This document shows positions 1 to 61,024 of a stretch of 64,000 nucleotides of DNA, piece after piece (the stretch's first letter is position 1; every line of letters starts with the position of its first letter). The position numbers and the translations under genes were made by a program. Below the pieces are notes generated by a model. It saw only the letters and a program-made list of their open reading frames with translations, made no database searches and had not been told where the DNA came from. The stretch is from Opitutaceae bacterium EW11 (GTDB taxonomy: Bacteria > Verrucomicrobiota > Verrucomicrobiia > Opitutales > Opitutaceae), in the NCBI GenBank assembly GCA_003054665.1, contig QAYY01000001.1:237501-301500 (forward strand), read 5' to 3'.

Positions 1-491
1 GTTTTTTGCCGATCAGACCGCCGTCACTTCAAAGAACTAGTCACTCAGGTCGCTCGCGCGGCGCGCTCACATCCAGAGGAAAAGGGTTCCGAAAGAACCG
101 GCTCTCGTCTTTTCGGTCAAGAGATTTTCCAGAAGTTTTTTCGCAGAATTTCCTGACGCCTGTTGTTCAAAATCTTCAAAGAACTTCCTTCATTTTCGCG
201 CTGTTTTTTACGCGGCGCTTCGTGAAGGGAGTGCGGACAATGGGATTCATCGAGCTGGGCACAAGAGGATTTTCTTAGAGTCCGAGACGTAGGCGGTAAC
301 AAACTGTACTACAGCTGCTTACGTGGATTTATTTTTGCAGGCCTGGCGAGATCCGGCGGTTGAGACCAGCCATGCGAGATTGTCTGAGGCTCACTCCAGC
401 GCGTATTCTATGTGTGGATACAGACGGCGTTCTGCCCGATCTGTCGCGAGGATTTCCCCACGCTTGCCTTGATCCTCTCTGAGGCGCGGAA
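1..491. other. Upstream non-coding stretch before fkp
   Basis: No convincing gene is visible. The longest open frame on the + strand (6-278) has no family resemblance. An imperfect hairpin is possible between 183-191 and 223-231. A 36-codon open frame starts with ATG at 372 and ends about ten bases before the fkp start; it could be a leader peptide, but nothing supports translation. The left boundary of the window cuts whatever lies further upstream. Confidence 0.4.
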
Positions 492-3419
492 TTGGCCATC
501 CCAATGACGCAAACCCTGCTCACGGTCCCCCCCGCGCTGGCGGGCTTTCTCAATAGAGGCAAAGACGAGTCTCCGGCCTGGCTGCGGCGACTCGGAGACT
601 CTGGCGCCACCCAGCCTTATATAGATTCGGATCCGGCGGGGAAACGGCTCGGTTCGGGCGGCGGCACGGTGCAACTGCTCTGCCAGGCCTGGAGAGCGAC
701 GGGCCGCGGCACTTCCTTCTCCTCGTGGTTGCGCTGCTCCCCAAAGCTCGTGCTCCACGCGGGAGGACAGAGCCGACGGCTCCCGGCGTACGCCGCTCTG
801 GGCAAGGCGTTCATGCCGTTGCCGAACCTGGATGGGCTCAAACCGGCGCTGCCGGACCCCGTTCTGGCGGACTACCAGCTCCCCGCTTACCGGCTGGCCC
901 TGAGGGAGGCGGGCGACAAGGCGGCTGTGCTCGTCACCTCCGGCGACGTATGGCTCGACTTCAATGCCCTCGAGATCCCAGAGGTTTGCGCGGACATCGT
1001 CGGAATCGGCATGACGGTCACTCCTGAAGTGGCCCAGCATTTCGGCGTGTATTTCGTCGCCAAAGACGGCCGCAGCCGGACCGCGAGTGAAAGGCCCATC
1101 GCCTTCTTCCGCCAAAAGCCGTCGATCGCGGAGATTCTGCGGGAGACCGGGAGCCACGACTTCTTCGTGGACACCGGAATGTGGCTGCTCAGCGGCAAGG
1201 CGGTGGAGATGCTGTTCCGGCGGTGTGGGTGGAACCCGCGTACTGAAACGTTCACTACAAAGGACGGCCTGCCGCTTCCCCTCGACCTCTACACCGAGGT
1301 GGGCACCGCCCTGGGCAACCCGCGTACGGCGAGTCCCGCGCTCCGAAAGGCCGGGCTTGCAGGTTTGACGGCCAGTGTCGTCCCCCTTCGAGCCGCCCGG
1401 TTTTATCATTTGGGGTCCAGCCGACAATTGCTGGAGTCGATGGAGCAGCTTCAGTGGCGGAGCCTGGCGCCGCAAAAAACGTTCCGCGTCGCGGTCCAGG
1501 ACGGGGCGACGGCGCCCCTGGGCCGGACCCTGAGCTGGGTGGAGGGGGCAGCAGTGCCGGCAACCCTCAATCTGGCCGGCTCCAACCTCATCACCGGGCT
1601 ACCTCCCGGCGCGTCGGTGTCGAGGCTCGCCACAGGGCAGTGTCTGGATATCGCCCCGATCCAAGGAGGGGGCTATGCCGTCCGCCCCTACGGCATCGAC
1701 GACACCCTTCGAGGCCGCTTGGAAGATGCGACGATCTGCGGACAGCCTGCGGTCCGGTGGCTGGCCGCCCGGGGATGGAGAATCGAGGCGGAGGATATCT
1801 TTCAGCTCCCCCTCTACCCGGTTCTTGCGGCGGAGGAGATCACGGACGCCCTGATCGATTGGTTTTTTGCCGATCAACCAGACACCGCACTCGGCACGCC
1901 GCTATTTCAGGCGCGACGGCTGGCGGCGGCAGAAATTCCTGACGTAGTAGACTTCGCCCGCTATTTTGCCCAACGGCGGGCGGGCTATGAGTCTGCCATG
2001 CAGCGGGCGTTCGAGGCGGTCCTCCGCCAGGAGAGCGAGCAGATTTTCGAACAGGACTTCGCCGCGATTGCCCGCTTCATCGGCAACACGGAGTCGCCGC
2101 TGAAACGCTGGATTCTGCGGCATGCAGGGTCCATTCGCGAAGCGGCGGAACGCCCTGAACACCGCGCCCGCTGGTTGATGCTGCTTTCAGAGCTCGCATC
2201 CGGTGAACACAGGCGCCTCTCGCTTCGCCGACAGGGTTTCCAGTGTCTTCAGGAAGCCCTTGTGTCGGCCAACCAACAGAGGAAGTCCGCCCCCTACCTG
2301 GCGCTAAAGGAAGACCAGATCGTCTGGGCGCGCAGCCCCGTCAGACTGGATCTCGCCGGAGGCTGGACTGATACGCCGCCGTTCTGCCTTGAGGAAGGCG
2401 GCACCGTCCTCAACGTGGCCGTCCTGCTCAACGGGCAACCTCCGATCCAGGCCTTCGTGAGGCCCACTCCGGATCCGGTTGTGCGGCTAAGGTCCATCGA
2501 TCTCGGCACGACGGAAACGGTGACCGATTACGCAGCGCTCGCCGACTTCAGGAATCCTCGGGGCCATTTCAGCCTGCCCAAAGCGGCGCTGGCCATGGCC
2601 GGATTCCTCCCCGAATTTGCCGAGGACGCGCGCCACCGCACCTTCAAGGCACGCCTGAAAGCGTTTGGTGGGGGACTGGAAATCTCGCTCCTGAGCGCCG
2701 TGCCGAAGGGCTCCGGCCTCGGCACCTCATCGATTCTCGGAGCCGCCGTCCTGGCTGCTTTGAACCGTGCCTGCGGCCTCGGCTGGGACGACGTGGATCT
2801 CTACAATCGCGTCCTAGCGGTGGAGCAGCTTCTTACCACCGGAGGTGGATGGCAGGACCAGGCTGGAGCGCTTTTTGGGAGTCTGAAGCTGATTCAGACG
2901 GAGCCGGGCATGAGCCAGTCGCCGAGCGTCCGGTATGTGCCCACTCATGCCCTGCAAGGCCGCGCCAACCGGGCGCACCTTCTTTACTATACCGGCGCGA
3001 CCCGGATGGCCAAAGGCATCCTCCAGGAGATCGTGAAAGACATGTTCATGGGCGACACCCGCACACGCCGGACCCTGGAAGCCATCCGGGCGAATGCGTG
3101 GGCGGCGTATCACGCGCTGCAGCTGGGCGATCACCCCGCAATTCTCCGGGCGATCGCGCGGTCCTGGCAACTCAACCAAGAACTCGATCCCGGCACCACG
3201 ACACCGGAGATTGAGGCGATCATCCGGACCTGCGGCGCCGACTTGGCGGCCTGCAAACTCCTCGGAGCGGGCGGCGGAGGTTTCATGCTGATGTGCGCCC
3301 AGGATGCAGAAGCGGGTGATCGTCTCCGTTCGAAACTGGAGTCCTGCCCTCCGAACCGCCGCGCCCGTTTCGTTGACTTTGCAGTTTCAGACCGCGGGCT
3401 GGAGGTCTCAGTGAGCTGA
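492..3419 (+). CDS. fkp: Bifunctional L-fucokinase / GDP-L-fucose pyrophosphorylase
   Basis: Makes GDP-L-fucose from free L-fucose: the C-terminal GHMP kinase forms fucose-1-phosphate and the N-terminal half transfers it to GTP. The 975-residue length and domain order match Bacteroides Fkp. The N-terminal half carries the nucleotide-binding glycine motif LGSGGGT near residue 53. The kinase half starts around residue 610 with RSPVRLDLAGGWTDTPP, then has the GHMP loop PKGSGLGTSS near 738 and a third motif LGAGGGGFML near 925. I chose the TTG at 492 because GAGG lies seven bases upstream; an ATG at 504 is the alternative. It stands alone, with 334 bases before accB. The product probably fucosylates surface polysaccharide or protein, but no fucosyltransferase is in this window. 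Confidence 0.93.
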   Translation: MAIPMTQTLLTVPPALAGFLNRGKDESPAWLRRLGDSGATQPYIDSDPAGKRLGSGGGTVQLLCQAWRATGRGTSFSSWLRCSPKLVLHAGGQSRRLPAYAALGKAFMPLPNLDGLKPALPDPVLADYQLPAYRLALREAGDKAAVLVTSGDVWLDFNALEIPEVCADIVGIGMTVTPEVAQHFGVYFVAKDGRSRTASERPIAFFRQKPSIAEILRETGSHDFFVDTGMWLLSGKAVEMLFRRCGWNPRTETFTTKDGLPLPLDLYTEVGTALGNPRTASPALRKAGLAGLTASVVPLRAARFYHLGSSRQLLESMEQLQWRSLAPQKTFRVAVQDGATAPLGRTLSWVEGAAVPATLNLAGSNLITGLPPGASVSRLATGQCLDIAPIQGGGYAVRPYGIDDTLRGRLEDATICGQPAVRWLAARGWRIEAEDIFQLPLYPVLAAEEITDALIDWFFADQPDTALGTPLFQARRLAAAEIPDVVDFARYFAQRRAGYESAMQRAFEAVLRQESEQIFEQDFAAIARFIGNTESPLKRWILRHAGSIREAAERPEHRARWLMLLSELASGEHRRLSLRRQGFQCLQEALVSANQQRKSAPYLALKEDQIVWARSPVRLDLAGGWTDTPPFCLEEGGTVLNVAVLLNGQPPIQAFVRPTPDPVVRLRSIDLGTTETVTDYAALADFRNPRGHFSLPKAALAMAGFLPEFAEDARHRTFKARLKAFGGGLEISLLSAVPKGSGLGTSSILGAAVLAALNRACGLGWDDVDLYNRVLAVEQLLTTGGGWQDQAGALFGSLKLIQTEPGMSQSPSVRYVPTHALQGRANRAHLLYYTGATRMAKGILQEIVKDMFMGDTRTRRTLEAIRANAWAAYHALQLGDHPAILRAIARSWQLNQELDPGTTTPEIEAIIRTCGADLAACKLLGAGGGGFMLMCAQDAEAGDRLRSKLESCPPNRRARFVDFAVSDRGLEVSVS

Positions 3420-48954: not shown

Positions 48955-51393
48955 ATGCGCTGGTTGCGCCTGCTCCTTTTCGCCATCACAGCCCCGTGCA
49001 TGGCCGCTGCCACGTTTTTGTGGACAGGCGGCGCGGGGGACGGAGCGTACACAAATCCCGCCAACTGGTCGGCAGGAGTGGTCCCACCCAACGACGGCTC
49101 CGCGGTAGTGATTTTCGGCAATGCCGGCGCCGGCGTCGTCCGGGTTTCGGGGCTGCTCAATCTAGCCCAGATCCAGTTCGCGAATACCACGTCGTCGGCC
49201 TACACGTTCTCCGCCGGCACGTCGGCCGCGGTGGTCACGCTGCAGAAGGGCTTTCTTTCGCAGGACGGCTCGCGGGCGACCTTTACGTCGGACGTCTTTT
49301 TCAATCTCACCGGCTCTGAAGCGTTCGAGATTGGCGCCGGTTCGCTCGAGATTGACGGCTCCATCGTCGGAATCGGCAGCCTGACCAAGTCCGGCAGCGG
49401 AAACCTCAAGCTGCTCGGACTCAATCTTTGGACCGGCGGCGTCACGCATGCGTCCGGCACAATCACACTCGGCTCTTTCGCGAACCTGGGAATCGGCACA
49501 CTCAGGCTCGCTGGAGGGGAACTCGCCCTGCCGGCTCACGACAACGTGGTCGTTCCGAACGCGGTTGTGATTCAGGCCAATACGCGCATCTCCGGCGTCC
49601 AGGATCAGTTCGCGGTGTTCGCCGGGCCCGTGACCCTGGCCTCCTCGGTCACGCTGACCGCGAGCGGCTCCTCGGCCATCTTCATCACCAACGCCGTGCA
49701 GGAGACCGGCGGAGCCCGGCAACTGACTGTGTCGGGGCTGGCGCCGGTGATCCTGTCCGGACCGAGCAGCTACACCGGTGGCACGGTGATCGACAACGGA
49801 GCCCTGATCTTCGCCTCGGCATCGTCCGTGCCCACGACCGGCTCGATCAAGGCTTCCACGCTCGGCTACGTGGGCATCGGCTACACCAACGACGTTCAGT
49901 CCGGCGTTTTGAGCCGCATCGATAACACGAATTTTCTCGGTATCATCGGCTTCGATACATCGCCGATTCAGGGCGGGACGAATGTCTTCGACAAGACGAT
50001 CGATCTCACGGGCCTGACGAACTACGCCAGCATAGGCTCGCGGACCTCCGCCGTGATCAGCGGCGAGGTGAAGGTAAACCAGGCACAGGATTACCGTTTC
50101 GGCGGCGGAGGCGGCTCGATCTATCTCGAGAGCAATCTGACCGCCCGCGGCGCCAACCTGCAGGTCGTGTCGCCGTTCGGTCAGCCGCTCACTCTCGTGC
50201 TGCGTGGAAACAACACGTTTTCTGGTTCGACCAACGTCCTCTACTCCGTCCTGGTGCTCGATCGGGCCGGGACGATTGCCTCCTCGACGCCGCTCAATCT
50301 GACCGGGCCGGGCTACATCGGAGCGACGGAGAATGCCGGGTTCACGCCCAACCAGTTTCTCGGAAGGCTGACAAAAATCGCCAGCGCGGACGCGATCGCC
50401 GGATTCGACTCGGCCTCCATGAGCGCGCCCCGAACGATTTCCGATCCCATCGACCTTTCGGTGGGCGGGCGCCGTACGGATCCGTATTACCTGGGCACAA
50501 GCAGCCGAGTGACACTCACCGGCACGATCACGCCCACGGTGGGTGACGCCCTTTATCTCACCGCGGTGAAAGGCGGCCGGCTCGTTGTCCAGTCGAAGCT
50601 CGGAAACAACATCCCTGGGGTCGTCGTCGGCCAGTCCAACTCCTTCGATCCACAAGGAGGCACGGTGGAACTCGCCAGTGCCAATAGCTACACGGGGCAA
50701 ACTCAAGTGCGCGGCGGTACCCTGCTGGTGAGCAACTCCGGGGCGCTCAGCACCGGAATCGTCAGCGTGGCAGATCGCGCAAGCCTCAGCCTCGCCGATG
50801 GGGTGACGCTCTCCAACGGCCTCTCCCTTTCTTCGGGCGCCCGCCTGAGCGGCACCGGCACGTTCTCTTCGCCCGGCGGGCTGACCATCGATCACGGCGC
50901 CATCATCTCGCCGGGAGGCCTCTACTCAGTCGGCACGCTCCAGTTCGGGTCGGGCCTGACGCTCGGGCCCGGCGGAATCCTGGAACTCGACGTCAGGTTC
51001 AATTCGTCCGGTTTTTACGGCGACCGCGTCGTCGTTTCCAACGGCGCGCTCAACATCGCCGGCGCCGCGAGCGGAAAATTCACGGTCTCTCTGTATTCAC
51101 TCGGAAGCGACGGGGCTCTCGGCTACCTGACGGGTTTCGACCCGACAAAGGCGTATTCCTGGGAATTCGCGACCGCCGGCAACATCGTCGGCTTCAATTC
51201 GAACCTCTTCACGGTCGATACTTCGAATTTCCTCAGCTCGACCGGCAGCGGTTCCTTCTTCGTGTCGCAGAACGGAAATTCGCTGATGATCAATTTTACT
51301 CCGGTCCCCGAGCCTTCGACTTTGATCTTGTATGGCATCGGCTTGGTCGCGATCGCCGCGTTCGAGTTTCGTCGCCGGCGCAATCGCCCCTGA
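48955..51393 (+). CDS. PEP-CTERM protein with autotransporter-type beta-strand repeats
   Basis: An 812-residue secreted protein. The signal peptide covers about residues 1-19. The body is a Gly/Ser/Thr-rich beta-helix with repeats of the autotransporter-associated type (TWTGG-like start WTGGAGDGAYTNPANWSAG, later GTVIDNGALIFASASS and QTQVRGGTLLVSNSGAL). The C terminus is a classic PEP-CTERM sorting signal: VPEPST at 784-789, a transmembrane helix and RRRR. It is expected to be processed by exosortase and exposed on or released from the surface. No exosortase is in this window. Confidence 0.92.
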   Translation: MRWLRLLLFAITAPCMAAATFLWTGGAGDGAYTNPANWSAGVVPPNDGSAVVIFGNAGAGVVRVSGLLNLAQIQFANTTSSAYTFSAGTSAAVVTLQKGFLSQDGSRATFTSDVFFNLTGSEAFEIGAGSLEIDGSIVGIGSLTKSGSGNLKLLGLNLWTGGVTHASGTITLGSFANLGIGTLRLAGGELALPAHDNVVVPNAVVIQANTRISGVQDQFAVFAGPVTLASSVTLTASGSSAIFITNAVQETGGARQLTVSGLAPVILSGPSSYTGGTVIDNGALIFASASSVPTTGSIKASTLGYVGIGYTNDVQSGVLSRIDNTNFLGIIGFDTSPIQGGTNVFDKTIDLTGLTNYASIGSRTSAVISGEVKVNQAQDYRFGGGGGSIYLESNLTARGANLQVVSPFGQPLTLVLRGNNTFSGSTNVLYSVLVLDRAGTIASSTPLNLTGPGYIGATENAGFTPNQFLGRLTKIASADAIAGFDSASMSAPRTISDPIDLSVGGRRTDPYYLGTSSRVTLTGTITPTVGDALYLTAVKGGRLVVQSKLGNNIPGVVVGQSNSFDPQGGTVELASANSYTGQTQVRGGTLLVSNSGALSTGIVSVADRASLSLADGVTLSNGLSLSSGARLSGTGTFSSPGGLTIDHGAIISPGGLYSVGTLQFGSGLTLGPGGILELDVRFNSSGFYGDRVVVSNGALNIAGAASGKFTVSLYSLGSDGALGYLTGFDPTKAYSWEFATAGNIVGFNSNLFTVDTSNFLSSTGSGSFFVSQNGNSLMINFTPVPEPSTLILYGIGLVAIAAFEFRRRRNRP

Positions 51394-51549: not shown

Positions 51550-51589
51550 AAAAACAACCAGCGCAGGGCCGCGTGGCCCTGCGCTGGTT
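51550..51589. terminator. Strong terminator between convergent genes
   Basis: A perfect 15-pair stem (51556-51570 with 51575-51589) has loop GCGT. On the minus strand it is followed by G and five T (51554-51550), which suits the minus-strand gene ending at 51619; it can also stop the PEP-CTERM transcript. Confidence 0.85.
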
Positions 51590-51618: not shown

Positions 51619-53289
51619 TTATTCGACTGGCGCGTCTTTGGCTCGCTTGACCAAGTCGATGAAATCGCGGCGCTTGTCCGACTTATCCTCCTTGTCCTGC
51701 CCTTCCTGGGCCCAGGTGAGAACCTTGTCGTAAGTGGCGGTGCCCTTGTGCGGAGATTCCGTCAGGAGCATGCCGAATCCGGCAACGGCGGCGGCAAACT
51801 TGAAGTCCTTGCTGGCCACGGAGAAATCGGCGCCGGTGTCGATCAGCGGAATCTCCAGCTTCTGGCTCACTTCCACCACCGGCAGCTTGTAGTGGACCTT
51901 CAACGTCAGCAGCTCGCGGTGCTTCGGATCATCCGTGCTGGCGAGGCGGCTCTCCGTTCCTGCGTAGCGCAGGGGATCGCCGTCGATCGCCGAGTCGCTG
52001 GGCGCGCCGACGGGCACGACCTCGAAAAGCGCGGTGATCATGTGCCCCGCCGGCATTTCCGTGCCGGGGATTTTGGCGCCGTTCGCGTCCGTCCTGGCAG
52101 CCGAATCCTCGTCGTAACCGATCAGACGATACGACTTGGCCTGCTCGGGATTAAACTCCACTTGCAGCTTCACGTCCTTCGCGACGGCCACCATGCCGTT
52201 GCCCATCGATTCTTCGAGGGGACGCGAGTCGGAGGCGCGCTGCAGTTCCGAAACGTCGCGACCCTTCAATCCGATACGGACGAGGCGGTGCGAGGGATTC
52301 CACGGGGCCGCGGCGACCTCCAGAGAGGCGGCAAGCGGGTTCGCGTCGCGCGGAGCGATCGAACCATACGAGAAATAGTTGAGCAGCTCTTCCACGCGCA
52401 CCGAGTCAGGCGGAGGAAGACGTCCGTTGCGGAGGAAGCGGCGGACGTTGGCATAGCTTTCGGTACCGACCACCGTCGGGAAGGCCGACAGCGGATAGCC
52501 TGCGACACCGAGGAAACCCTTGGCCGGCTGATACGCGTAGTTCGGGGAGCTGTGGTGCGGTTGAGTCGCAGAGGCAGCTTCCGAGCCGTAATTCGCAAGC
52601 GGGCTGAGCTGACGATTGCGGCGAGCGTCGGCCGCGCCTCGAGTCGTACGAAGGGCAATGGCCCCCGCATCAGACGGTCCGCTCCACGATTCAGAACTTC
52701 CGCCGTCTGAAGCCGCCGCGCCGGGGACGACTTTGATCGCGGGTTGTTCAGCAGAAGCGACGGCCCGAGCGGCCGGAATCGGAGAACTCGTTTCGACTGA
52801 GATCGGGGAATCGTCCGGACCAACCTGCGGCAGACTCGCCTTCACTTCGGTGCTGGCCAGTGCCGAGCCCTTTGTGTCCGCCGGGACGGAAGAGCTCGCA
52901 ATAGGAGCCTCGGTGCGCGCTTGCGCCACCGTCGCCGAAGAAGTCTCGGTTCGCGAACCGGAGGTGGGGCGGAGCACCAGAAGCACCGCGAAACACGCTG
53001 CCGCGGCAAGGCCTGCAGCCCAAGCGTACGGGAAATGGAGCACTTTCCGGTCTTCGCCGAGATCGGCCGCCGGATTGTCGTGCTGGCGGGCCGACACGGG
53101 CTCGATGGGCTCGTCGGCCAAAACATCCTCAAGACGCCCAGCCAGGACGCGGACTTCGTCCACGACGGCCTGAGCCTCGTAATCACCATCGATCGCCCGG
53201 GCGATCTCGGCACTCTCCTCCGCATCCAGCTCACCGAGGGCGTAAGCGGTCAGGCGCGGATCGTCAGGGAGTATCTTCTTTTCGTTCAT
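51619..53289 (-). CDS. YfbK-like anti-sigma/von Willebrand protein lacking its vWA domain
   Basis: A 556-residue protein. Residues 1-60 resemble a cytoplasmic anti-sigma region (DPRLTAYALGELDAEESAEI), a transmembrane helix is at 88-107, and a long Ala/Ser-rich linker follows. From 275 it matches the von Willebrand N-terminal domain (ESYANVRRFLRNGRLPPPDS, LVRIGLKGRDV) and from 357 the DUF3520 C-terminal domain (AKDVKLQVEFNP, SYRLIGYDE). In YfbK-type proteins a von Willebrand A domain of about 170 residues separates these; here only some ten residues (346-357) connect them, in frame. No DxSxS metal site remains. It follows an ECF sigma gene by 16 bases. Confidence 0.85.
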   Translation of the reverse strand: MNEKKILPDDPRLTAYALGELDAEESAEIARAIDGDYEAQAVVDEVRVLAGRLEDVLADEPIEPVSARQHDNPAADLGEDRKVLHFPYAWAAGLAAAACFAVLLVLRPTSGSRTETSSATVAQARTEAPIASSSVPADTKGSALASTEVKASLPQVGPDDSPISVETSSPIPAARAVASAEQPAIKVVPGAAASDGGSSESWSGPSDAGAIALRTTRGAADARRNRQLSPLANYGSEAASATQPHHSSPNYAYQPAKGFLGVAGYPLSAFPTVVGTESYANVRRFLRNGRLPPPDSVRVEELLNYFSYGSIAPRDANPLAASLEVAAAPWNPSHRLVRIGLKGRDVSELQRASDSRPLEESMGNGMVAVAKDVKLQVEFNPEQAKSYRLIGYDEDSAARTDANGAKIPGTEMPAGHMITALFEVVPVGAPSDSAIDGDPLRYAGTESRLASTDDPKHRELLTLKVHYKLPVVEVSQKLEIPLIDTGADFSVASKDFKFAAAVAGFGMLLTESPHKGTATYDKVLTWAQEGQDKEDKSDKRRDFIDLVKRAKDAPVE

Positions 53290-53305: not shown

Positions 53306-53830
53306 TTAGAGCCGCTGAGCGGCAAATTCGTCACGCAGCCGATGCACGGCATGGTGGATCAAGACGCCGACGTTGCTCACCGACAGAGCGGTGATTCGGC
53401 TAATCTCTTTGTAGCTAAATCCGTTTTGGAATTTCAGGCGGATGACTTCCTGCTGATTGGGCGGAAGCCGATCGATCAGTTTCAACACCGTCTCCTGAAT
53501 CTCTGCATTCTCCATACGACGCGATACGCGAGGTTCATCAGCCGTAACACGCTCGGCTTGGCCTTCCTCGAAACGCTTCATCCGACCTTCCTTCCGGAGG
53601 ACGTCCAAGGCCCGGTGGCGACAGACAGTGAACAACCACTCAGCGAGGTGGCCGTTGAGACTGTCTGGGGATTGCGACATGAGCTTGAGAAACGTATCTT
53701 GCACCACGTCGCGAGCACGGTCGGGATCGCCGACCAGCCGGGCAGCATAACGCGTGAGCGGAGTTTGGTACTCCGCCACGGCAGACTGCACGAAATCGCT
53801 GGTGTATTCATTGGGGCTTTCCCGATTCAT
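53306..53830 (-). CDS. ECF-type RNA polymerase sigma factor
   Basis: A 174-residue sigma factor with region 2 (LTRYAARLVGDPDRARDVVQDTFLKLM, residues 25-51, and WLFTVCRHRALDVLRKEGR) and region 4 (IDRLPPNQQEVIRLKFQNGF, then SYKEISRITALSVSNVGVL). The neighbouring gene behind it encodes a membrane protein with an anti-sigma-like N terminus, so the pair is likely sigma and regulator, although the partner is a vWA-less variant. Confidence 0.93.
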   Translation of the reverse strand: MNRESPNEYTSDFVQSAVAEYQTPLTRYAARLVGDPDRARDVVQDTFLKLMSQSPDSLNGHLAEWLFTVCRHRALDVLRKEGRMKRFEEGQAERVTADEPRVSRRMENAEIQETVLKLIDRLPPNQQEVIRLKFQNGFSYKEISRITALSVSNVGVLIHHAVHRLRDEFAAQRL

Positions 53831-53970
53831 GAGGTTCTTGGGGTGCGAAACCTTCGCTGGTATGACGTTTTGAGTGGAGATTTCTTACCAAAATCGACCG
53901 CTTTAGCGATCTGCGAAGCCTCTGATTTGCGATCCGTAAGACAAAAACGGTAGATCGATACTACGCAGCG

Positions 53971-54039: not shown

Positions 54040-54819
54040 TCACTCGCCTGCCGGAGCTCGATTCACATACAGCACGTCCACCACGTTCCGCACAAACTGC
54101 TCGTCCGAAACCCCTTCAATTGCCTCCGCAGGGACGGGAGTGAGGCTGCGGAAATGGTTCGCCAGCACGGAAAAGAGCCTTACCCGCGCCTCAGCGTCCA
54201 GCCGTTCGCGCCGGGCCAAGGCCTGCCATGCCGCTCGCGCTTCGCGTGGGTCTACCGCCTGGCGAAGCCTCGCCACGACAGGAGGATGAGCGCGAAGGGA
54301 GTTATATTTCTCGTTTCCAAATACCGACGGGTCCGGCGCCGGCTCGGGCGGCTCCCAGATCACGAGCGTCCCGGCCGCCAGATCGCCCAAACGCTGGCTG
54401 CGGCGCGACAAAAGCCCCGCCGCTCCGCCCACGAGGTAGGCACCCGGCAGCACATCGACAAATCGGAGCAGGTTTCGGAGCGCGATTTGGGAAAACGTCA
54501 GACGCAGGCCACGTTCGTCGACGACCCGCAGCCGCATCAACCGCTTTCCGAGAGTCTGCCCGCGCCAACGCCATTCGGCGATCATCCGGTATCCCTGGGA
54601 GAGAAGAAAGTATCCCACCACCGCAACCAGGTTCGCCACGTCCGTGCCGACGATGCTCAGGAGCATCAGAAAAATGCCCACCACACTCCAGGCCGCTGCC
54701 ACGACAGCCGTATCGATGCTGAGGGCCACCGCTCGCAGAACCGGACTCGCGAGCCGATACGAAAAAGTCACGCCTTCCGGCGTCCGCACCTGCCAACTTT
54801 GGACCCGGTCGTCGCTCAC
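54040..54819 (-). CDS. RDD family membrane protein
   Basis: A 259-residue protein of the RDD family with about three transmembrane helices (about 33-60, 62-80, 135-155) and the motif LASPVLRAVALSIDTAVVA with the Arg-x-x-Asp core, followed by a helical C-terminal region. GTG at 54819 has AAAGGAG about eight bases upstream, and its GTGA overlaps the stop of the SpoIIM-like gene. It is the last of the ten-gene MoxR cluster. Confidence 0.85.
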   Translation of the reverse strand: MSDDRVQSWQVRTPEGVTFSYRLASPVLRAVALSIDTAVVAAAWSVVGIFLMLLSIVGTDVANLVAVVGYFLLSQGYRMIAEWRWRGQTLGKRLMRLRVVDERGLRLTFSQIALRNLLRFVDVLPGAYLVGGAAGLLSRRSQRLGDLAAGTLVIWEPPEPAPDPSVFGNEKYNSLRAHPPVVARLRQAVDPREARAAWQALARRERLDAEARVRLFSVLANHFRSLTPVPAEAIEGVSDEQFVRNVVDVLYVNRAPAGE

Positions 54820-55820
54820 GGACGGCTCTCCTTTCGATTCCGCCCCGCCCGAGCCAGGAACCACGTCAGCGCTGTCGCCTCGACGAGCCCGAAGACGATT
54901 TTCACCCAGTACGGGATTACCGGCTCGTGGTACTGCGAAAGAAACGCCTCCACCACTCCTGCCCAAACGAGCATCAGGGCAGCACCAAAACACAAAGTCA
55001 CCACGTCCGGCGCAACCTCCCGCAGCCGGCTAGAAAGCGGCGCACGACGTCCGCGCCCGAGGAGGGCCGACGCCAATACGAGCCCCGCCTGCCCGCCGAC
55101 AAGGATCGCCGGGATCTCGACGGTCCCGTGAGGCAGAAGCCAGCCGGCGAGAAACACGCCCTGGCCGGCGAGCAGGTAATCGACGGCCACGGCCCCGAGG
55201 ATCACTCCGTTGTAGAAAAGGAGGACGATCGTGCCGACGCCGTAAGTCATGCCGAGACCGACAGCCGTCAGCGTCACCTGGGTGTTGTGCGTCATCAGTT
55301 GGCCGGAAAACGCCGCCTTGTGGCCCGAGAGATCCTTGCCGCGCTGCTGCTCTTCGCGAGCGACGCGCTCCGAGGGGTCCCCTTGAAGGTGGGCAAACGG
55401 AAGCAGCACTTCCTTCGCATCGGGATCGAAACCCGCCGCAAAACCGCCGAAAGCGACGCCCACGAGCGTCAAAACAACCGCGAGCCCGAACGCGCCGATG
55501 CGGCGCCGAAACGTGTTCGGCCAGACAACGGTGAACCAATGCCAGAGGCGGAAGCGACGCCCGCCCTCCCTCGCCCCGTGAATCTCGGCGTAGCCGCGAG
55601 CCACCAATCTTTCGAGAAACCCCCGCGTCTCCGGCTCCGCTGCGAATGTCGCCAGTCGCGCGAGATCCGCGGAAGCGCGCTGGTAGAGGCGCTCGAGATT
55701 CCGAGCCTCGTCCACGGTGAGCTGGCGCCAGGGATCCCGCGCAAGCCGCTCGAGCGTGACATCGAGCTCGAGCCATTTGGGCCGCTCCTCCGCGATGAAC
55801 TTGTCGAGGTTGACGATCAT
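54816..55820 (-). CDS. Stage II sporulation protein M-like membrane protein
   Basis: A 334-residue membrane protein with a cytoplasmic helical N terminus (ERPKWLELDVTLERLARDPW) and about five transmembrane helices from residue 105. The family motif THNTQVTLTAVGLGMTYGVG and LPHGTVEIPAILVGG are SpoIIM-like. The organism is not a spore former as far as one can tell, and in such operons this family accompanies MoxR and DUF58. It starts eight bases after the DUF58 gene. Confidence 0.88.
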   Translation of the reverse strand: MIVNLDKFIAEERPKWLELDVTLERLARDPWRQLTVDEARNLERLYQRASADLARLATFAAEPETRGFLERLVARGYAEIHGAREGGRRFRLWHWFTVVWPNTFRRRIGAFGLAVVLTLVGVAFGGFAAGFDPDAKEVLLPFAHLQGDPSERVAREEQQRGKDLSGHKAAFSGQLMTHNTQVTLTAVGLGMTYGVGTIVLLFYNGVILGAVAVDYLLAGQGVFLAGWLLPHGTVEIPAILVGGQAGLVLASALLGRGRRAPLSSRLREVAPDVVTLCFGAALMLVWAGVVEAFLSQYHEPVIPYWVKIVFGLVEATALTWFLARAGRNRKESRP

Positions 55821-55828
55821 GGCACGGT

Positions 55829-57163
55829 TCAGAGCAGTTGGCGCTGTTTCACCGCGAGGTACTGGGTTACCAGCTCGGCCGCCAGCGTTTCGTGCTCCAG
55901 CAAGCTCGCCGTCACACCGAGCGGCTTGAGCGTCTGGGCGAGCGATTTCGCCTCGGTCCAGCGCGCGTGCCCTGCGAGCTTGGAGTAAACTTCGTCGGAA
56001 TCGGCGATCTCCTCACCCGAAAAGAGACGTTCCACGCCGGGAGCGCGGAGCTGGTTGACGAAAACCAGGTGCTGGCGGGAGAGCAGCTTCACGTGCCGGG
56101 CGAAATCCTCGGCAAGCACGGGATCGGCGAGATCGGTGAGAAAAACCAGGAGCGCGCGCCTACGGATACGGCTTCGCAGATGCCGGACGACTTCGGCCAT
56201 GTCGGGCGATACCTGGCTCGGTTTCAGCCGGTAGATCGCCTCGCGGCACGCCGCGTAATGACCTTCGCCGTACCCGGCCTTCAACGACAGGCGAACCCGG
56301 TCGTCGTACACCATCAGGCCGAAATGATCGCCCTGACGCTCAGCCGCCAGCAACAGGACCAGCGCGGCGGTGAGATAGCGCTCGAGCGCCGTCTGCCTGA
56401 CACCCTCGTGAACCAAGGGTCGGGCGCTCAGGCGGGAGGCATCGAGGATGACATAGATCTCCTGGGTGCGCTCGACTTGGAACACCTTCGTCACCGGATG
56501 GCCGCGCTTCGCCGTGGCCTTCCAGTGGATTTCGTCGAAGCCGTCGCCGGGCAGATACTCGCGGAGTTTCTCGAATTCGCGCCCGCGCCCCACCGTTCGC
56601 TGGAGTTTGGCCCCGAACTGTCCTCGCGCGAGAAATAGCGCCGCCAGTTGGCGCCGTTCGCTGAAAAGGTTCGGATATACCCTCAGTTCGCACGGAACGC
56701 TCCACCGTCGGCGAAGGGTCCAGAGCCGAAACCGGGAGAAAAACTCGAAACAGGCCAGCACCGACGAATCGCGTCCGCGCGAGCGGGGTGTCGCCATCCA
56801 ATCGATACGCGACTGCTTCGCGTCGCCCGGAAGATCGATCCACAGCTCCTCCACCGCCGGGGTGAACGTCGCGGGCAGCCCCAGCGCGAAACGGATTCGG
56901 AGCGCCGCAGGCCTCGGACGGACGAACGTCACGGGGATCGCGCCGGCCCGATCCTTCGAGAAGCGGACGACATCGGGCACCTCGATCGCGATCTCGGCGG
57001 GTCGGGCAAGGCCGAGGATCAGGTCCAACAACGCCACCACGAAGGCCCCGACGCCGAGCAGCAACGCGAGCGGCCTCAACGAGGCCAACGGTCCCGCCGC
57101 CGCCGCAACCGGGACGAGGGCTGCGACGACCACGAGCAATCGTTGCGCGGGGACCGGCGTCAT
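55829..57163 (-). CDS. DUF58 domain protein of the MoxR operon
   Basis: A 444-residue protein with an N-terminal hydrophobic pair (8-50), a beta domain and the DUF58 motif REYLPGDGFDEIHWKATAKRG near 205-225, followed by a von Willebrand A-like domain (IYVILDASRLSARP; the usual DxSxS site is only partly kept). MoxR ATPases are thought to remodel or activate such partners. It follows MoxR by three bases. Confidence 0.9.
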   Translation of the reverse strand: MTPVPAQRLLVVVAALVPVAAAAGPLASLRPLALLLGVGAFVVALLDLILGLARPAEIAIEVPDVVRFSKDRAGAIPVTFVRPRPAALRIRFALGLPATFTPAVEELWIDLPGDAKQSRIDWMATPRSRGRDSSVLACFEFFSRFRLWTLRRRWSVPCELRVYPNLFSERRQLAALFLARGQFGAKLQRTVGRGREFEKLREYLPGDGFDEIHWKATAKRGHPVTKVFQVERTQEIYVILDASRLSARPLVHEGVRQTALERYLTAALVLLLAAERQGDHFGLMVYDDRVRLSLKAGYGEGHYAACREAIYRLKPSQVSPDMAEVVRHLRSRIRRRALLVFLTDLADPVLAEDFARHVKLLSRQHLVFVNQLRAPGVERLFSGEEIADSDEVYSKLAGHARWTEAKSLAQTLKPLGVTASLLEHETLAAELVTQYLAVKQRQLL

Positions 57164-57166
57164 GGC

Positions 57167-58132
57167 CTAGCGGGGCACCGCCACCTGTTCGAGTATCCGA
57201 CCAAGCACTTCATCGAGCGTAAGCCCTTCGATCTCGAATTCCGGACGAAGCACCAAGCGATGGCCGAGCACGGCGGGGGCGAGACCGCGCACGTCGTCCG
57301 GGCTGACGAAGTCCCTTCCGTCGAGCGCCGCCCGGGCCCGGCTGCCGAGCAAGAGGGCCTGCGTCGCGCGCGGACCGGCCCCAACCAGCACGCTCTCGTG
57401 CTGGCGCGTGGCCCGCACGAGGTCGACGATGTAGCCCACCAGTTCTTCGCGCACCATGACCGCGTCCAGCGCCTGGCGCACCGATCCAAGTTCGCCGGCC
57501 GCCAGCACGGGCTTCACTCCACCGTGGGTGAGCACCGCCTCCGGCGATTCCGAGCCGAGCGTCCGTCGCGCCAAGGTGAGCTCCTGCTCCCGCGACGGAG
57601 GCTCCATCTTGATCTTCACCATGAACCGATCCTTCTGCGCCTCCGGTAACGGATACGTGCCTTCCGAATCGGCCGGATTCTGCGTGGCGAAAACCGTGAA
57701 GTTGGCGTCCAGCGGATGCGTCTCCCGGTCGATGCTGACGGCGCGCTCCTGCATGGCCTGGAGCAGCGCCGCCTGCGTTTTTGCGGGAGCGCGGTTGATT
57801 TCGTCGGCGAGCAGGAAGGTCGTGAAAACCGGTCCGGGGATCAGCGTGAACTGGTTGCTCTGAAGGTTAAATACGTTCGTTCCCGTGATGTCCGCCGGCA
57901 TCAGATCCGGCGTAAACTGCACACGTCCGCTCGGCACGCCGAGCACTTGTCCGAGCGTCCGGACGAGCAGCGTCTTCGCCACGCCCGGCACACCTTCGAC
58001 GAGCGCATGGTTGCGGGTGAGCAGCGTGATCAGGGCCAGATCGACGACCGGTTCCTGGCCGATGATCACCTTGGCGATCTCGGCTCTGGCGGCAGAAAGC
58101 GTGGACGCGAATCTTTCGAGGACGGGGTTCAT
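57167..58132 (-). CDS. MoxR family AAA+ ATPase
   Basis: A 321-residue AAA+ ATPase with Walker A GVPGVAKT at 47-54, Walker B FLLADEINRAPAKTQ near 105-120, sensor 1 ATQNPADSEGTYPLPEAQKDRF and C-terminal lid. MoxR ATPases act as chaperones for partner proteins encoded beside them. It lies four bases after the DUF4350 gene and leads into DUF58. Confidence 0.96.
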   Translation of the reverse strand: MNPVLERFASTLSAARAEIAKVIIGQEPVVDLALITLLTRNHALVEGVPGVAKTLLVRTLGQVLGVPSGRVQFTPDLMPADITGTNVFNLQSNQFTLIPGPVFTTFLLADEINRAPAKTQAALLQAMQERAVSIDRETHPLDANFTVFATQNPADSEGTYPLPEAQKDRFMVKIKMEPPSREQELTLARRTLGSESPEAVLTHGGVKPVLAAGELGSVRQALDAVMVREELVGYIVDLVRATRQHESVLVGAGPRATQALLLGSRARAALDGRDFVSPDDVRGLAPAVLGHRLVLRPEFEIEGLTLDEVLGRILEQVAVPR

Positions 58133-58136
58133 AAAG

Positions 58137-59360
58137 TCATCTGCGTTTCAACGCCCGCACGATGGCGTTGTAGCGCTCGGGCACCGAGGCATTCGGAGGA
58201 AGGGCGGCAAGCGCGGCATGAACCCGGGCTTCATCGGAGGATCGTGTCGCCTGTTTCCATTCCCCGATACAACAGGATATCAGATCGGCCGGCTTCACGG
58301 CCCGGCGCAGGAGCGCTTCAAGCCCCGCCGTCTGGCTGTACGCGAGCTCCGTTTCCTCCGACTCGGGCAAAGGTGGGACGAACAACGCCGTGCGCCTCCA
58401 AATGAAGAGAGCGGCAAGAACCAGCGCGAGGGCTGCGGCTCCCGTCAGCCCATAGCGACGGGCAAGCGCGGCAATGCCGAGGTCCTCCTTCACGCCGAGG
58501 TGCGTTTCGCAGAAAACGACGGAGGCCTGTGAGCCGACGAGCCACGACAGCAGTTCCGGAAACCGTCGGTCCCGGAGGGCTTCGTTGCTCAGGAAGTAGG
58601 CGTCGCTCGCCAGGACGATGCTTCCCAAGCCGCGGCTGCGCTCGATCAGCACGGGGAACGATGCCCGGGTGTACAGCGACTTCCAACCCACCCGGGCCAG
58701 GGCGGCGGACGAGGCGACCGAGTTGGACGAGCCGGACGAGGCGTCGAAGTACACTTCGCTCTTCCAAGGAAGGGTCGGCGGCAGCCGGTCGGCGGCACCC
58801 TCAACACGCACAGCACCCTGACCGCGATCAGCCATCCAGCGTAGCTTCGCCGCGACGCCCCAGAGCTGAACCCAATCGGTTCGCCTCAAACGTTCCGGCA
58901 ATTCCGCCTCCCGTTTCGCCTCTTCCTCCTCGCGCTTCTTTTTCCGAGCCGCCTCCGCGGGCGATCCTTTGCGAACCGAAGCCGGCGCACTCTGCGGCGT
59001 CAGTTCCGGGGCAAAAACCACCACGATCCGCGAACCTCCGCGGACCAGGGCGTCGAGCGCATCGGACTCCTGCCGCACAAAACCCGCCCAAGCCTCCCGC
59101 GTCATTCCGGGAAGGATGATTGTCGCCGGTCTCGACGTATCCAGTTTTTGAAATGGCCTCATCCAACGTCTCACCGTCAGGCCCGGCATTTCAGACAGGG
59201 CCTCGAAATAGGCCCGGGTGCCGAGCGGATCCGCACGGAGGGTCGAATACGGTGGAAACAAATCCCCGCCCGAAAGCCGGTCGGAGTAGAGGCGCGCAAA
59301 ACCGACGATCAGGAAAAGCACGATCGCGACGAAACCCAGGATCTGCAGGCGCCGACTCAT
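58137..59360 (-). CDS. DUF4350 domain protein
   Basis: A 407-residue protein with an N-terminal transmembrane helix (7-25), a periplasmic-type domain with the DUF4350 pattern (PYSTLRADPLGTRAYFEAL, later YFLSNEALRDRRFPELLSWL) and a second helix near 310-330, followed by a cytoplasmic helical tail. The central stretch (EEEEAKREAELPERLRR) is highly charged. DUF4350 proteins are regular members of MoxR/DUF58/DUF4129 clusters. It overlaps the DUF4129-like gene by four bases. Confidence 0.85.
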   Translation of the reverse strand: MSRRLQILGFVAIVLFLIVGFARLYSDRLSGGDLFPPYSTLRADPLGTRAYFEALSEMPGLTVRRWMRPFQKLDTSRPATIILPGMTREAWAGFVRQESDALDALVRGGSRIVVVFAPELTPQSAPASVRKGSPAEAARKKKREEEEAKREAELPERLRRTDWVQLWGVAAKLRWMADRGQGAVRVEGAADRLPPTLPWKSEVYFDASSGSSNSVASSAALARVGWKSLYTRASFPVLIERSRGLGSIVLASDAYFLSNEALRDRRFPELLSWLVGSQASVVFCETHLGVKEDLGIAALARRYGLTGAAALALVLAALFIWRRTALFVPPLPESEETELAYSQTAGLEALLRRAVKPADLISCCIGEWKQATRSSDEARVHAALAALPPNASVPERYNAIVRALKRR

Positions 59361-61024
59361 CGAACCGCTCCCCCGAATTCGTCCGCCCAGGCCTTCACCC
59401 GCTCGCCGGCGGCTTCGGCCCGTCCGTACCAAACCGACTCGAACTCGCGCCGCCGCTCCGCGAAAGCCCGCACGACTTCAGGAAATGCCGCCGCGCGCCG
59501 CCGCAGTTCCCGCTCGTAATCGAGGTTCGTCTTCGACTTTCCGAGCGAGAGCAGTCCCTCGGCGGCGAGACGCGCCAGAGTCGCCAGATAGAGCGCCCTC
59601 AATGCGAGACGCCACTCGCCGCGCGCCATCTGCTCGCGGGCGAGTGCGAGCCACCCGTCGGCCGGGAGCTGCGCGGCCTGCACGGAGTCGTCGGTCAGAT
59701 CCGGCCGCGCGGAGACCGGCCGGGCAGAAATCGGTCGCACGGGCGCCTGTCGCCGCTGCCGCACGATCACGACGAGAAGCGCGACCAGCAAACCAACCGC
59801 CAGGAGAATGAGCCCGTAGAGGAGCACCCGAAGAAGCACGAGCCCGCCTCCCGGCGCAGGGCGTTTCTCGCCCGACGACGTCGGGAACAAGTCCCGCAGC
59901 CAGCGGGCAACCCGTTCAATGAACCGAAAGACCGACCGCGCCATCGACCGCAGAGCCTCGAACGATTGACGGACGAACCTCTTCACCGAGCCCTCCTCCG
60001 CGGTATCCGCGCTTTTTTCCCGCAGGGCTGGCCTGAGACGCCATTCGAACTCGGGCTGCGCGAGCACCCGATCGATTGCGCCGTCGAGTTCCTTTGCTGG
60101 AACGACGGTCCCCGTGGAAAGTTTCTCCGCCGGTTCACCGGAAGCCCCCCGTAGCGGACGATCCACTACGAACGTAATCATCAGCAACGCCGCCAGAACC
60201 AAGCCCGCCCGTCGAGCGCGAGCAGCCGCCGCCAACTCCACCTGCAGGTCTTCACCCGAACGCTGGGAACGTCCGTAGAAAACGCGCAGCACGTAGAACG
60301 CCTTCACCAGCGGATCCACAGCGAGCCAGGTGAGTGCGCAAACCGACGCGAGGAAGGTCGTGTTCAGTCCCCACCAGCCGGTGAAGCCGAAGAGATTCTG
60401 GATTCCGAAAAACCGGTTGGCCACCCACGGCAGGACATAAAACGCCGCTGCGACATTGAGCAGGGCGGCGGAGGCGATGACGGAAAGAAAAAGCAGGCCG
60501 AGATGATTCTGCTTCGGCCATCGCTTCGCCTCGATCGCGGCTTCGGCCGTCAGCCCCTGCCCGTTCTCGTTCTCAAGACCAAGGACGGTGGCGTTCTGGA
60601 AAAACGCATATACCCAGCCAAACGGGAAGCTCAGCACGAGCGAGATCGGGACGGCGATGGCTCCCCAGGCTTGCACGCGCAGCTGCGTCGCCGAGAGCCG
60701 TAGCAGCCGCTTGAGCGAGAGGCTTGGCGGGGCCGCTCCGAGCCGGCGCGCCAGGAGCCTCGCGCAGAACTCCGACTGCGCGGCCTTCATCCCGGCGAAC
60801 AGCAGCACGAGCCCCAGGGCGAACCACGCCACCTGCGCCTCGCTGGGCGCAAACCAGGTCGTACGGGCCCAGAAGAAGAGGAACGCCAGCACCCAGGCTC
60901 CGGTGCCGGCATAGTAGACCGACCAGGACGCAAGGTCCGTCGTGCGGAGGAGATGAATCGCCTCTTCGATCAGCCGCACGGGTTGCGGCTCCGAAAGCCG
61001 GACGGCGTCACTTTTCCGGTTCAT
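59357..61024 (-). CDS. Large membrane protein with DUF4129-like C terminus
   Basis: A 555-residue protein with about six helices (44-62, 66-85, 115-140, 180-205, 225-250, 275-295), a periplasmic stretch rich in Glu and Arg, a further helix near 395-420, and a C-terminal cytoplasmic domain resembling DUF4129 (DGWLALAREQMARGEWRLAL, YLATLARLAAEGLLSLGKS). It overlaps the B-box gene by 17 bases. Confidence 0.75.
   Translation of the reverse strand: MNRKSDAVRLSEPQPVRLIEEAIHLLRTTDLASWSVYYAGTGAWVLAFLFFWARTTWFAPSEAQVAWFALGLVLLFAGMKAAQSEFCARLLARRLGAAPPSLSLKRLLRLSATQLRVQAWGAIAVPISLVLSFPFGWVYAFFQNATVLGLENENGQGLTAEAAIEAKRWPKQNHLGLLFLSVIASAALLNVAAAFYVLPWVANRFFGIQNLFGFTGWWGLNTTFLASVCALTWLAVDPLVKAFYVLRVFYGRSQRSGEDLQVELAAAARARRAGLVLAALLMITFVVDRPLRGASGEPAEKLSTGTVVPAKELDGAIDRVLAQPEFEWRLRPALREKSADTAEEGSVKRFVRQSFEALRSMARSVFRFIERVARWLRDLFPTSSGEKRPAPGGGLVLLRVLLYGLILLAVGLLVALLVVIVRQRRQAPVRPISARPVSARPDLTDDSVQAAQLPADGWLALAREQMARGEWRLALRALYLATLARLAAEGLLSLGKSKTNLDYERELRRRAAAFPEVVRAFAERRREFESVWYGRAEAAGERVKAWADEFGGAVR

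Follow-up and report, generated by a model that had tools for sequence, protein, structure and literature searches.

Architecture of the vWA-less locus

The window, by which we mean the whole stretch of 64,000 nucleotides that was analysed, carries on its minus strand a gene (P0001; 51619..53289) for a putative YfbK-type anti-sigma factor of 556 residues that lacks the von Willebrand A (vWA) domain, as judged from Pfam, the list of open reading frames (ORFs) and the translation. The ORF list starts this frame at an earlier ATG, at 53352. Unless stated otherwise, the features described below lie on the same strand. Residues 249-338 (52276..52545) matched the Pfam model vWF_A (PF12450), the N-terminal half of a split beta-sandwich, with an E-value of 7.2e-25 and 87.3 bits against a cut-off of 25. 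Residues 366-551 (51637..52194) matched YfbK_C (PF12034; E 1.1e-48, 166.3 bits against a cut-off of 25), which comprises the remaining sandwich strands and, in the AlphaFold (AF2) model, a C-terminal helical bundle. Neither PF00092 nor any other VWA model matched P0001 in Pfam at E-values up to 1, and the sole other Pfam row was zf-HC2 (E 0.11), which falls under the Pfam cut-off. This agreed with an earlier sequence-only reading of the locus, according to which the entire vWA domain is gone in frame; the search it had proposed for PF12450, PF00092 and PF12034 in order returned PF12450 followed by PF12034, with PF00092 absent. The module order given there thus stood, while its module limits (about 275-345 and from about 357) were slightly off, and the Pfam matches are separated by 27 residues rather than by the mere ten or so that had been claimed.

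The site of the missing domain is the junction at residues 344-367 (52189..52260), which in the AF2 model is flanked by the strands 331-343 and 368-379. Alignment with vWA-carrying relatives showed that the approximately 170 residues found between HRLVRIGLKGRE and AKDVKLQVEFNP in the relative L032 correspond to approximately 24 residues in P0001. Here, the conserved strand ends with GLKGRD and is followed by the ∼24 residues and then by AKDVKLQVEFNP, and the reading frame is unbroken across the junction. In L032-type relatives, the ∼170 residues include the motifs DVSGSM, STNG and TDGDFN. By eye only, the P0001 residues ahead of AKDV (PLEESMGNGMVAV) look like the last vWA helix of the relatives (LLVEQVNGTLVTI), and their placement by MAFFT differs. 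Within the vWA domains of 12 relatives, D8, S10, S12 and D106 were invariant. A separate observation concerns the vWA-carrying locus L043 (5610-6089), where the position of the MIDAS threonine reads SAQS and not STNG; judging from its sequence, this vWA domain is possibly MIDAS-dead.

The N-terminus of P0001 (residues 1-59; 53113..53289) forms an anti-sigma-like domain with three predicted helices, assigned from the AF2 model, NCBIfam and a profile match. Residues 13-145 matched the NCBIfam anti-sigma factor model NF052375 with an E-value of 1.5e-6 and 28.4 bits against a cut-off of 100. The N-terminal profile gave a weak match (E 0.0076) to 3hug_B, which carries only the name 'probable conserved membrane protein' in the search output; 3HUG is what we take to be the RslA anti-sigma complex. 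A search of the P0001 sequence against the PDB gave no match at E≤1. The anti-sigma-like domain is followed by a predicted membrane helix (residues 89-105; 52975..53025), which is helical in the AF2 model and hydrophobic by eye, and by a disordered linker (residues 110-247; 52549..52962) with pLDDT values below 50 at residues 110-158 and 160-247. As the linker is predicted to be disordered and has no Pfam match, a vWA domain hidden within it was ruled out; the sequence-only reading had named an ordinary vWA fold in the linker as a finding that would overturn its view.

Directly upstream, at 53306..53830, lies a gene for an ECF sigma factor of 174 residues with Sigma70_r2 and Sigma70_r4_2 matches above the Pfam cut-off, in line with the sigma partner noted in the sequence-only reading. 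This gene is preceded by the promoter-like motif TAAGAA-N14-CGTC (53864..53887), which occurs once in the window against 0.11 expected matches and which many relatives have; a scan for housekeeping promoters found none. Downstream of P0001, a hairpin resembling an intrinsic terminator (51556..51589) consists of a 15-pair stem (51589-51556) followed by GTTTTTC. The gene had been said to possess a strong terminator of its own, and this holds for the length of the stem, on which the assignment rests, and not for the count of terminator-like sites, which at three in the window is no higher than in shuffled sequences (mean 2.5). On the plus strand, a convergent gene (48955..51393) specifies a PATR/PEP-CTERM surface-type protein, which neighbourhood comparison identified as a recurrent 3′ neighbour. 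Upstream, on the same strand as P0001, an operon-like run (54040-61024) comprises RDD, SpoIIM, DUF58, MoxR-type AAA, DUF4350 and DUF4129 genes, the DUF4129 assignment falling under the Pfam cut-off. RDD-to-MoxR homologues also adjoin the sigma gene in L040, L041 and L110. We considered the DUF58 neighbour as a split-off vWA domain and rejected it, since the same DUF58 operon flanks the vWA-carrying loci L040 and L110.

Distribution and neighbourhood of vWA-less genes

We collected 36 distinct vWA-less YfbK-type ORFs, in which YfbK_C was detected in all 36, vWF_A in 35 and a VWA model in none (E≤0.01). Four of these (L055, L088, L228 and L229) are short or cut, and L168, L171 and L172 had been missed by the HMM filter and were added by hand. 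Within the family, 103 of 200 genomes matched the vWA-less profile; most of these matches come from vWA-carrying genes, each hit in two separate pieces, and at least 21 of the 103 genomes have a vWA-less gene verified by domain HMMs, including G022 via the short L055. Furthermore, vWA-less genes were present in f19, another family of the order (G371, G216, G302, G319 and G164, corresponding to L168-L172), and in other families of the class (G432, G404, G675, G650, G487, G509 and G535). Among the matches listed in a search of the phylum, there was no single-span match outside the class. The vWA-less locus L090 stems from a record titled Acidobacteria and groups with L087 and L112 from Verrucomicrobia; it is possibly a mislabelled metagenome-assembled genome (MAG) or a transfer. 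In the vWA-less L093 (7001-8519), the anti-sigma part and the core apparently lie in different frames, indicative of a frameshift or an assembly error.

The sigma gene adjoins or overlaps the vWA-less ORF in 32 of the 36 loci, at a distance of at most 220 nt. Three of the other four (L088, L228 and L229) reach the end of a contig, and L055 has room for a sigma gene, which was looked for beside the ORF and not found; once the contig-end cuts are set aside, the sigma gene is retained in 32/33 loci. The pattern TAA(G/T)AA-N14-CGT(C/T/G) was present upstream of the sigma gene in 17/32 vWA-less loci (shuffle mean 0.015) and in 41/71 vWA-carrying loci (shuffle mean 0.07), an enrichment that is not independent, because the 55 loci from which the motif was derived overlap with those counted. 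The exact pattern is absent from 15/32 vWA-less loci, and, as noted by eye, the vWA-less loci L139, L155, L210, L221 and L222 have the motif with CGTA, which lies outside the counted pattern. Loci with the record titles Acidobacteria, Planctomycetota and Bdellovibrionia also have the promoter-like motif. Counted across six genomes, matches to the exact pattern showed no overall excess, at 42 against 50 for the reversed control (10 versus 13 in the window's genome, G000, and 10 versus 6 in G004), and we therefore claim no regulon beyond the operon. Going by sequence, the motif supports at most an autoregulation of the sigma operon.

A convergent PATR/PEP-CTERM neighbour was found at 7/33 vWA-less and 10/82 vWA-carrying loci, and of the 1771 long open frames as a whole, the counted neighbours included, 26 have a PEP-CTERM-type tail. 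The figure of seven was obtained after removal of two false regex matches (L139 and L219) from nine; the looser of two regexes was used, as the stricter version missed the neighbour of the window gene itself. Five tandem fusion genes were excluded from both the motif and the neighbour counts. Single frames joining an ECF sigma-like domain to a YfbK-type vWA module were observed in L155 (4730-7513), L210 (9268-12063), L139 (3730-6372), L219 (2198-4837), L220 (302-4861), L095 (3727-6261), L099 (3829-6375) and L135 (8587-10524), with an anti-sigma-like motif and a hydrophobic stretch, recognized by eye, between the two parts. For the L155 fusion, Pfam finds sigma region 4 and not region 2 (E≤0.01), and its sigma part may be degenerate. 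Fusions of sigma and anti-sigma factors as such are known, the accessible part of PMC8999054 describing IutY and ECF48/52/53.

Repeated loss of the vWA domain

To place the loss, we built an unrooted tree from the flanking domains only, with 59 of 128 core rows, 18 of which are vWA-less. This tree requires 12 changes of the vWA state, and its starred branches force at least eight of them. A single origin of the vWA-less state was recovered in 0/200 bootstrap trees, and an AU test rejected one vWA-less clade with a p-AU of 1.18e-5, a value which presumes a group chosen in advance of the tree, as is true only in part. A second, quick tree with a wider set of 110 rows, 29 of them vWA-less, likewise gave 12 changes, of which seven were forced, with long branches meeting in this tree. 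It omitted 18 of the 128 core rows, including L055, L228 and the f19 proteins L168-L172, and the divergent f19 proteins are in neither tree. By the tree counts, the bootstrap and the AU test, one loss inherited by all vWA-less genes was ruled out.

In the main tree, the window protein pairs at 97/89 with its nearest relative, the vWA-less protein of G004, and the vWA-carrying G002 stands next to this pair (92/89, not starred). The quick tree instead placed the window protein and G004 among six vWA-less rows (82), and the depth of this loss thus differs between the two trees. Several vWA-less clades have more than one member. One of the clearest isolated losses is that of L093 against its sister L160 (100/99), with the reservation that L093 is maybe frameshifted upstream.

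Comparison of 17 junctions showed that the cut ends vary and that both flanking strands are kept in 17/17. In the vWA-less ORF of L088 (3-1028), a stub of the first stretch of the vWA domain remains, with the MIDAS start DVSGSM in it; the deletion here is apparently an independent one. The junctions of L210, L045 and L103 retain residues of the last vWA helix, and L166 is cut at GRE/AGGTLVTIAKDV. The trees and the junctions indicate that the vWA domain was lost several times independently in these relatives, with the rest of the protein kept. This bears out the earlier proposal of a natural in-frame domain-deletion variant, for which a comparison of orthologues had been suggested: the loss is common to the window and G004, has been repeated independently and can be explained structurally.

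Predicted structural basis for the removal of the domain

The AlphaFold model of P0001 has a mean pLDDT of 72.9 and is largely above 90 over residues 250-553, with weak loops near 350-369, 390-409 and 430-449. Its order is three N-terminal helices, the helix 89-105, the disordered residues 110-247, the sandwich and three C-terminal helices, and the two sandwich strands bordering the junction are joined by a short stretch. The model of the vWA-carrying L099 shows the same order of strands and helices, with a vWA fold (331-506) between two sandwich strands. In structural comparisons, the P0001 model aligned with ArnB (8s05_A), a chain of the ArnAB complex, at Z 8.3 and an rmsd of 3.9 over 155 residues, 317..556 on chain residues 2..355. 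A second row was 5a8j (Z 7.1), the next unrelated rows had Z 6.0, and a Z of 8.3 is just above the level where chance arrangements are common. The vWA-carrying model aligned with 8s05_A at Z 19.6 (rmsd 6.4, 325 residues, chain 2..357). Foldseek ranked the gamma-adaptin ear domain (1gyu, E 5.7e-4) first and ArnB (E 6.4e-4) second for P0001. In the accessible part of PMC12852372 (2026), the ArnB sandwich is described as split by the vWA domain and followed by a helical bundle, and the predicted structure of E. coli YfbK is counted among the structural orthologues of ArnB. On the models, the vWA domain is thus most readily understood as an insertion into a split beta-sandwich, which without it is predicted to close as one domain. 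Because the insertion lies in a split sandwich, excision would leave a continuous domain.

Selection and alternative explanations

Conceivably, the loss of the vWA domain could be the first step in the loss of function of a decaying gene. The vWA-less side has the longer branch in 13/13 comparisons, which share rows and are not independent, and such branches indicate that constraint is relaxed or shifted; moreover, the L093 copy, with an open frame from 7194 against a tblastn match from 7001, may be broken or misassembled. We nevertheless regard decay as highly unlikely. The dN/dS ratios (NG86) are 0.07-0.37 for eight vWA-less pairs and 0.08-0.25 for seven vWA-carrying pairs, several pairs being near saturation and row L227 being used twice. 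In addition, vWA-less sequences that are 35-51% identical to the window protein keep an open frame and a conserved core, the sigma gene and in many cases the promoter-like motif are retained, as detailed above, and several vWA-less clades comprise more than one member. An assembly or binning artefact has a negligible chance of being the explanation, even though many relatives are MAGs and L088, L228 and L229 lie at contig ends: the same architecture is present in G004 and G172, both single-contig genomes listed as 100% complete, and on the window's own contig of 1.18 Mb, and the 36 distinct sequences differ in their junctions. That the vWA-less form is ancestral, with the vWA domain inserted later and several times, appears very improbable. 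Counts of changes on an unrooted tree cannot by themselves separate gain from loss, but the records with vWA-carrying forms span several phyla, vWA-less rows are nested within well-supported vWA-carrying groups and L088 preserves a stub of the vWA start. Compared with the vWA domain of L032, those of 10 other YfbK-type relatives show 61-88% identity, in keeping with one old domain (33% for the paralogue L052), and, L090 being the exception among the named loci, no single-span match outside the class was among those listed in the phylum search.

Alternatively, a paralogue or a split-off gene might provide the vWA domain in trans, such that the switch would still use a MIDAS domain. Indeed, the window's genome has a second YfbK-type protein with a vWA domain on contig C15 (L052:2670-5498), with its own ECF sigma gene just upstream. 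At L155, L139, L219 and L220, only a separate sigma gene stands between the vWA-less gene and a sigma/anti-sigma/vWA fusion gene upstream of it, and the L210 fusion gene is located ∼2 kb further away. Against this, G172 encodes a single, vWA-less YfbK_C protein and yielded nothing in a search with the YfbK-type vWA profile (E≤1e-6), and in G004 and in G016, too, the vWA-less protein is the only one with YfbK_C. The best vWA-profile matches in the latter two genomes are open frames of 473 residues (G004, E 4e-23) and 465 residues (G016, E 3e-24). Altogether, a single YfbK_C place was found in 8 of 20 vWA-less genomes, in some others the two places being halves of one gene; the eight include G1007, in which a divergent fusion gene (L139/L218) carries a vWA domain. 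We consider a supply in trans unlikely.

Proposed mechanism and comparison with known systems

P0001 probably encodes a membrane-anchored anti-sigma factor for the upstream ECF sigma factor, with a sensor that works without a MIDAS domain. Architecture, loss, recurrence, selection and synteny are steps read from sequences and predicted structures, whereas we infer the topology, the binding and release of the sigma factor, and the signal. The sequence-only reading had suggested that the anti-sigma region may now work without the adhesion domain, and this suggestion, while still conditional, gains from the purifying selection, the retained sigma synteny and the retained promoter-like motif. Upon in-frame excision of the vWA insert, the two halves would close into a contiguous beta-sandwich with its helical bundle. 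The N-terminal region would hold the sigma factor at the membrane, in the predicted topology, and a signal acting on the sandwich/helical module on the far side, by binding or by exposure to a protease, would release it. The freed sigma factor could then transcribe its own operon from the TAA(G/T)AA-N14-CGT motif. Having lost the metal-dependent (MIDAS) ligand input that the parent protein had, the switch would answer a different signal or have a different threshold. More tentatively, and with some doubt on our part, the vWA domain may serve as a plug-in module for input, while the real sensor-transducer would be the split beta-sandwich with its helical bundle; each of the repeated excisions at this seam would then re-wire the switch in evolution, a metal-dependent ligand signal giving way to one sensed directly by the sandwich.

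The repeated losses, with the rest of the protein under selection, provide paired natural deletions with intact close relatives (L166 versus L100, L086 versus L121), with which the assignment of sensing and of transduction to individual parts can be tested directly. They also document the convergent removal of a topologically inserted domain and indicate that a domain inserted into a split fold stays removable. If the plug-in idea is true, vWA-less proteins are natural deletion experiments on signalling between vWA domain and sandwich. Literature searches on YfbK/von Willebrand, ECF/vWA/anti-sigma and missing vWA domains, with subscription papers mostly outside their scope, returned no description of a vWA-less YfbK or a YfbK-type ECF anti-sigma factor, nor is either described in the accessible parts of PMC12826043, PMC3174227 and PMC8999054. 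A search on DUF3520 found nothing, and the literature searched gave no answer as to the function of the vWA domain in the widespread YfbK-type proteins.

With the YfbK family (PF12450 - VWA - PF12034; E. coli YfbK), P0001 has in common both flanking modules, their order and the predicted sandwich and bundle, while the family has a vWA domain with a MIDAS and P0001 has neither. The N-terminal anti-sigma-like region and the predicted membrane helix are present in P0001 and in the vWA-carrying relatives studied here. To our knowledge, E. coli YfbK has neither of these two elements. Sulfolobus ArnB and ArnE (VWA2; PDB 8s05 and 5a8j) display a vWA-split beta-sandwich followed by a helical bundle, and the alignment of the P0001 model spans nearly the whole length of the chain. 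Unlike P0001, ArnB retains its vWA domain; it is a phosphorylation-regulated partner of ArnA, for which the accessible part of PMC12852372 describes no sigma partner. Of the ArnB and Sec23-24 core, the predicted P0001 model thus has the split sandwich and the helical bundle but not the inserted vWA domain. With membrane-bound ECF anti-sigma factors (the RskA/RslA type, FecR and IutY), P0001 shares a weak N-terminal likeness, a predicted membrane helix and an adjacent ECF sigma gene, and it differs from them in its far side, which is a YfbK/ArnB-type sandwich. Together, these comparisons describe a protein that departs from the canonical YfbK architecture in its vWA domain and that is probably an ECF anti-sigma factor.
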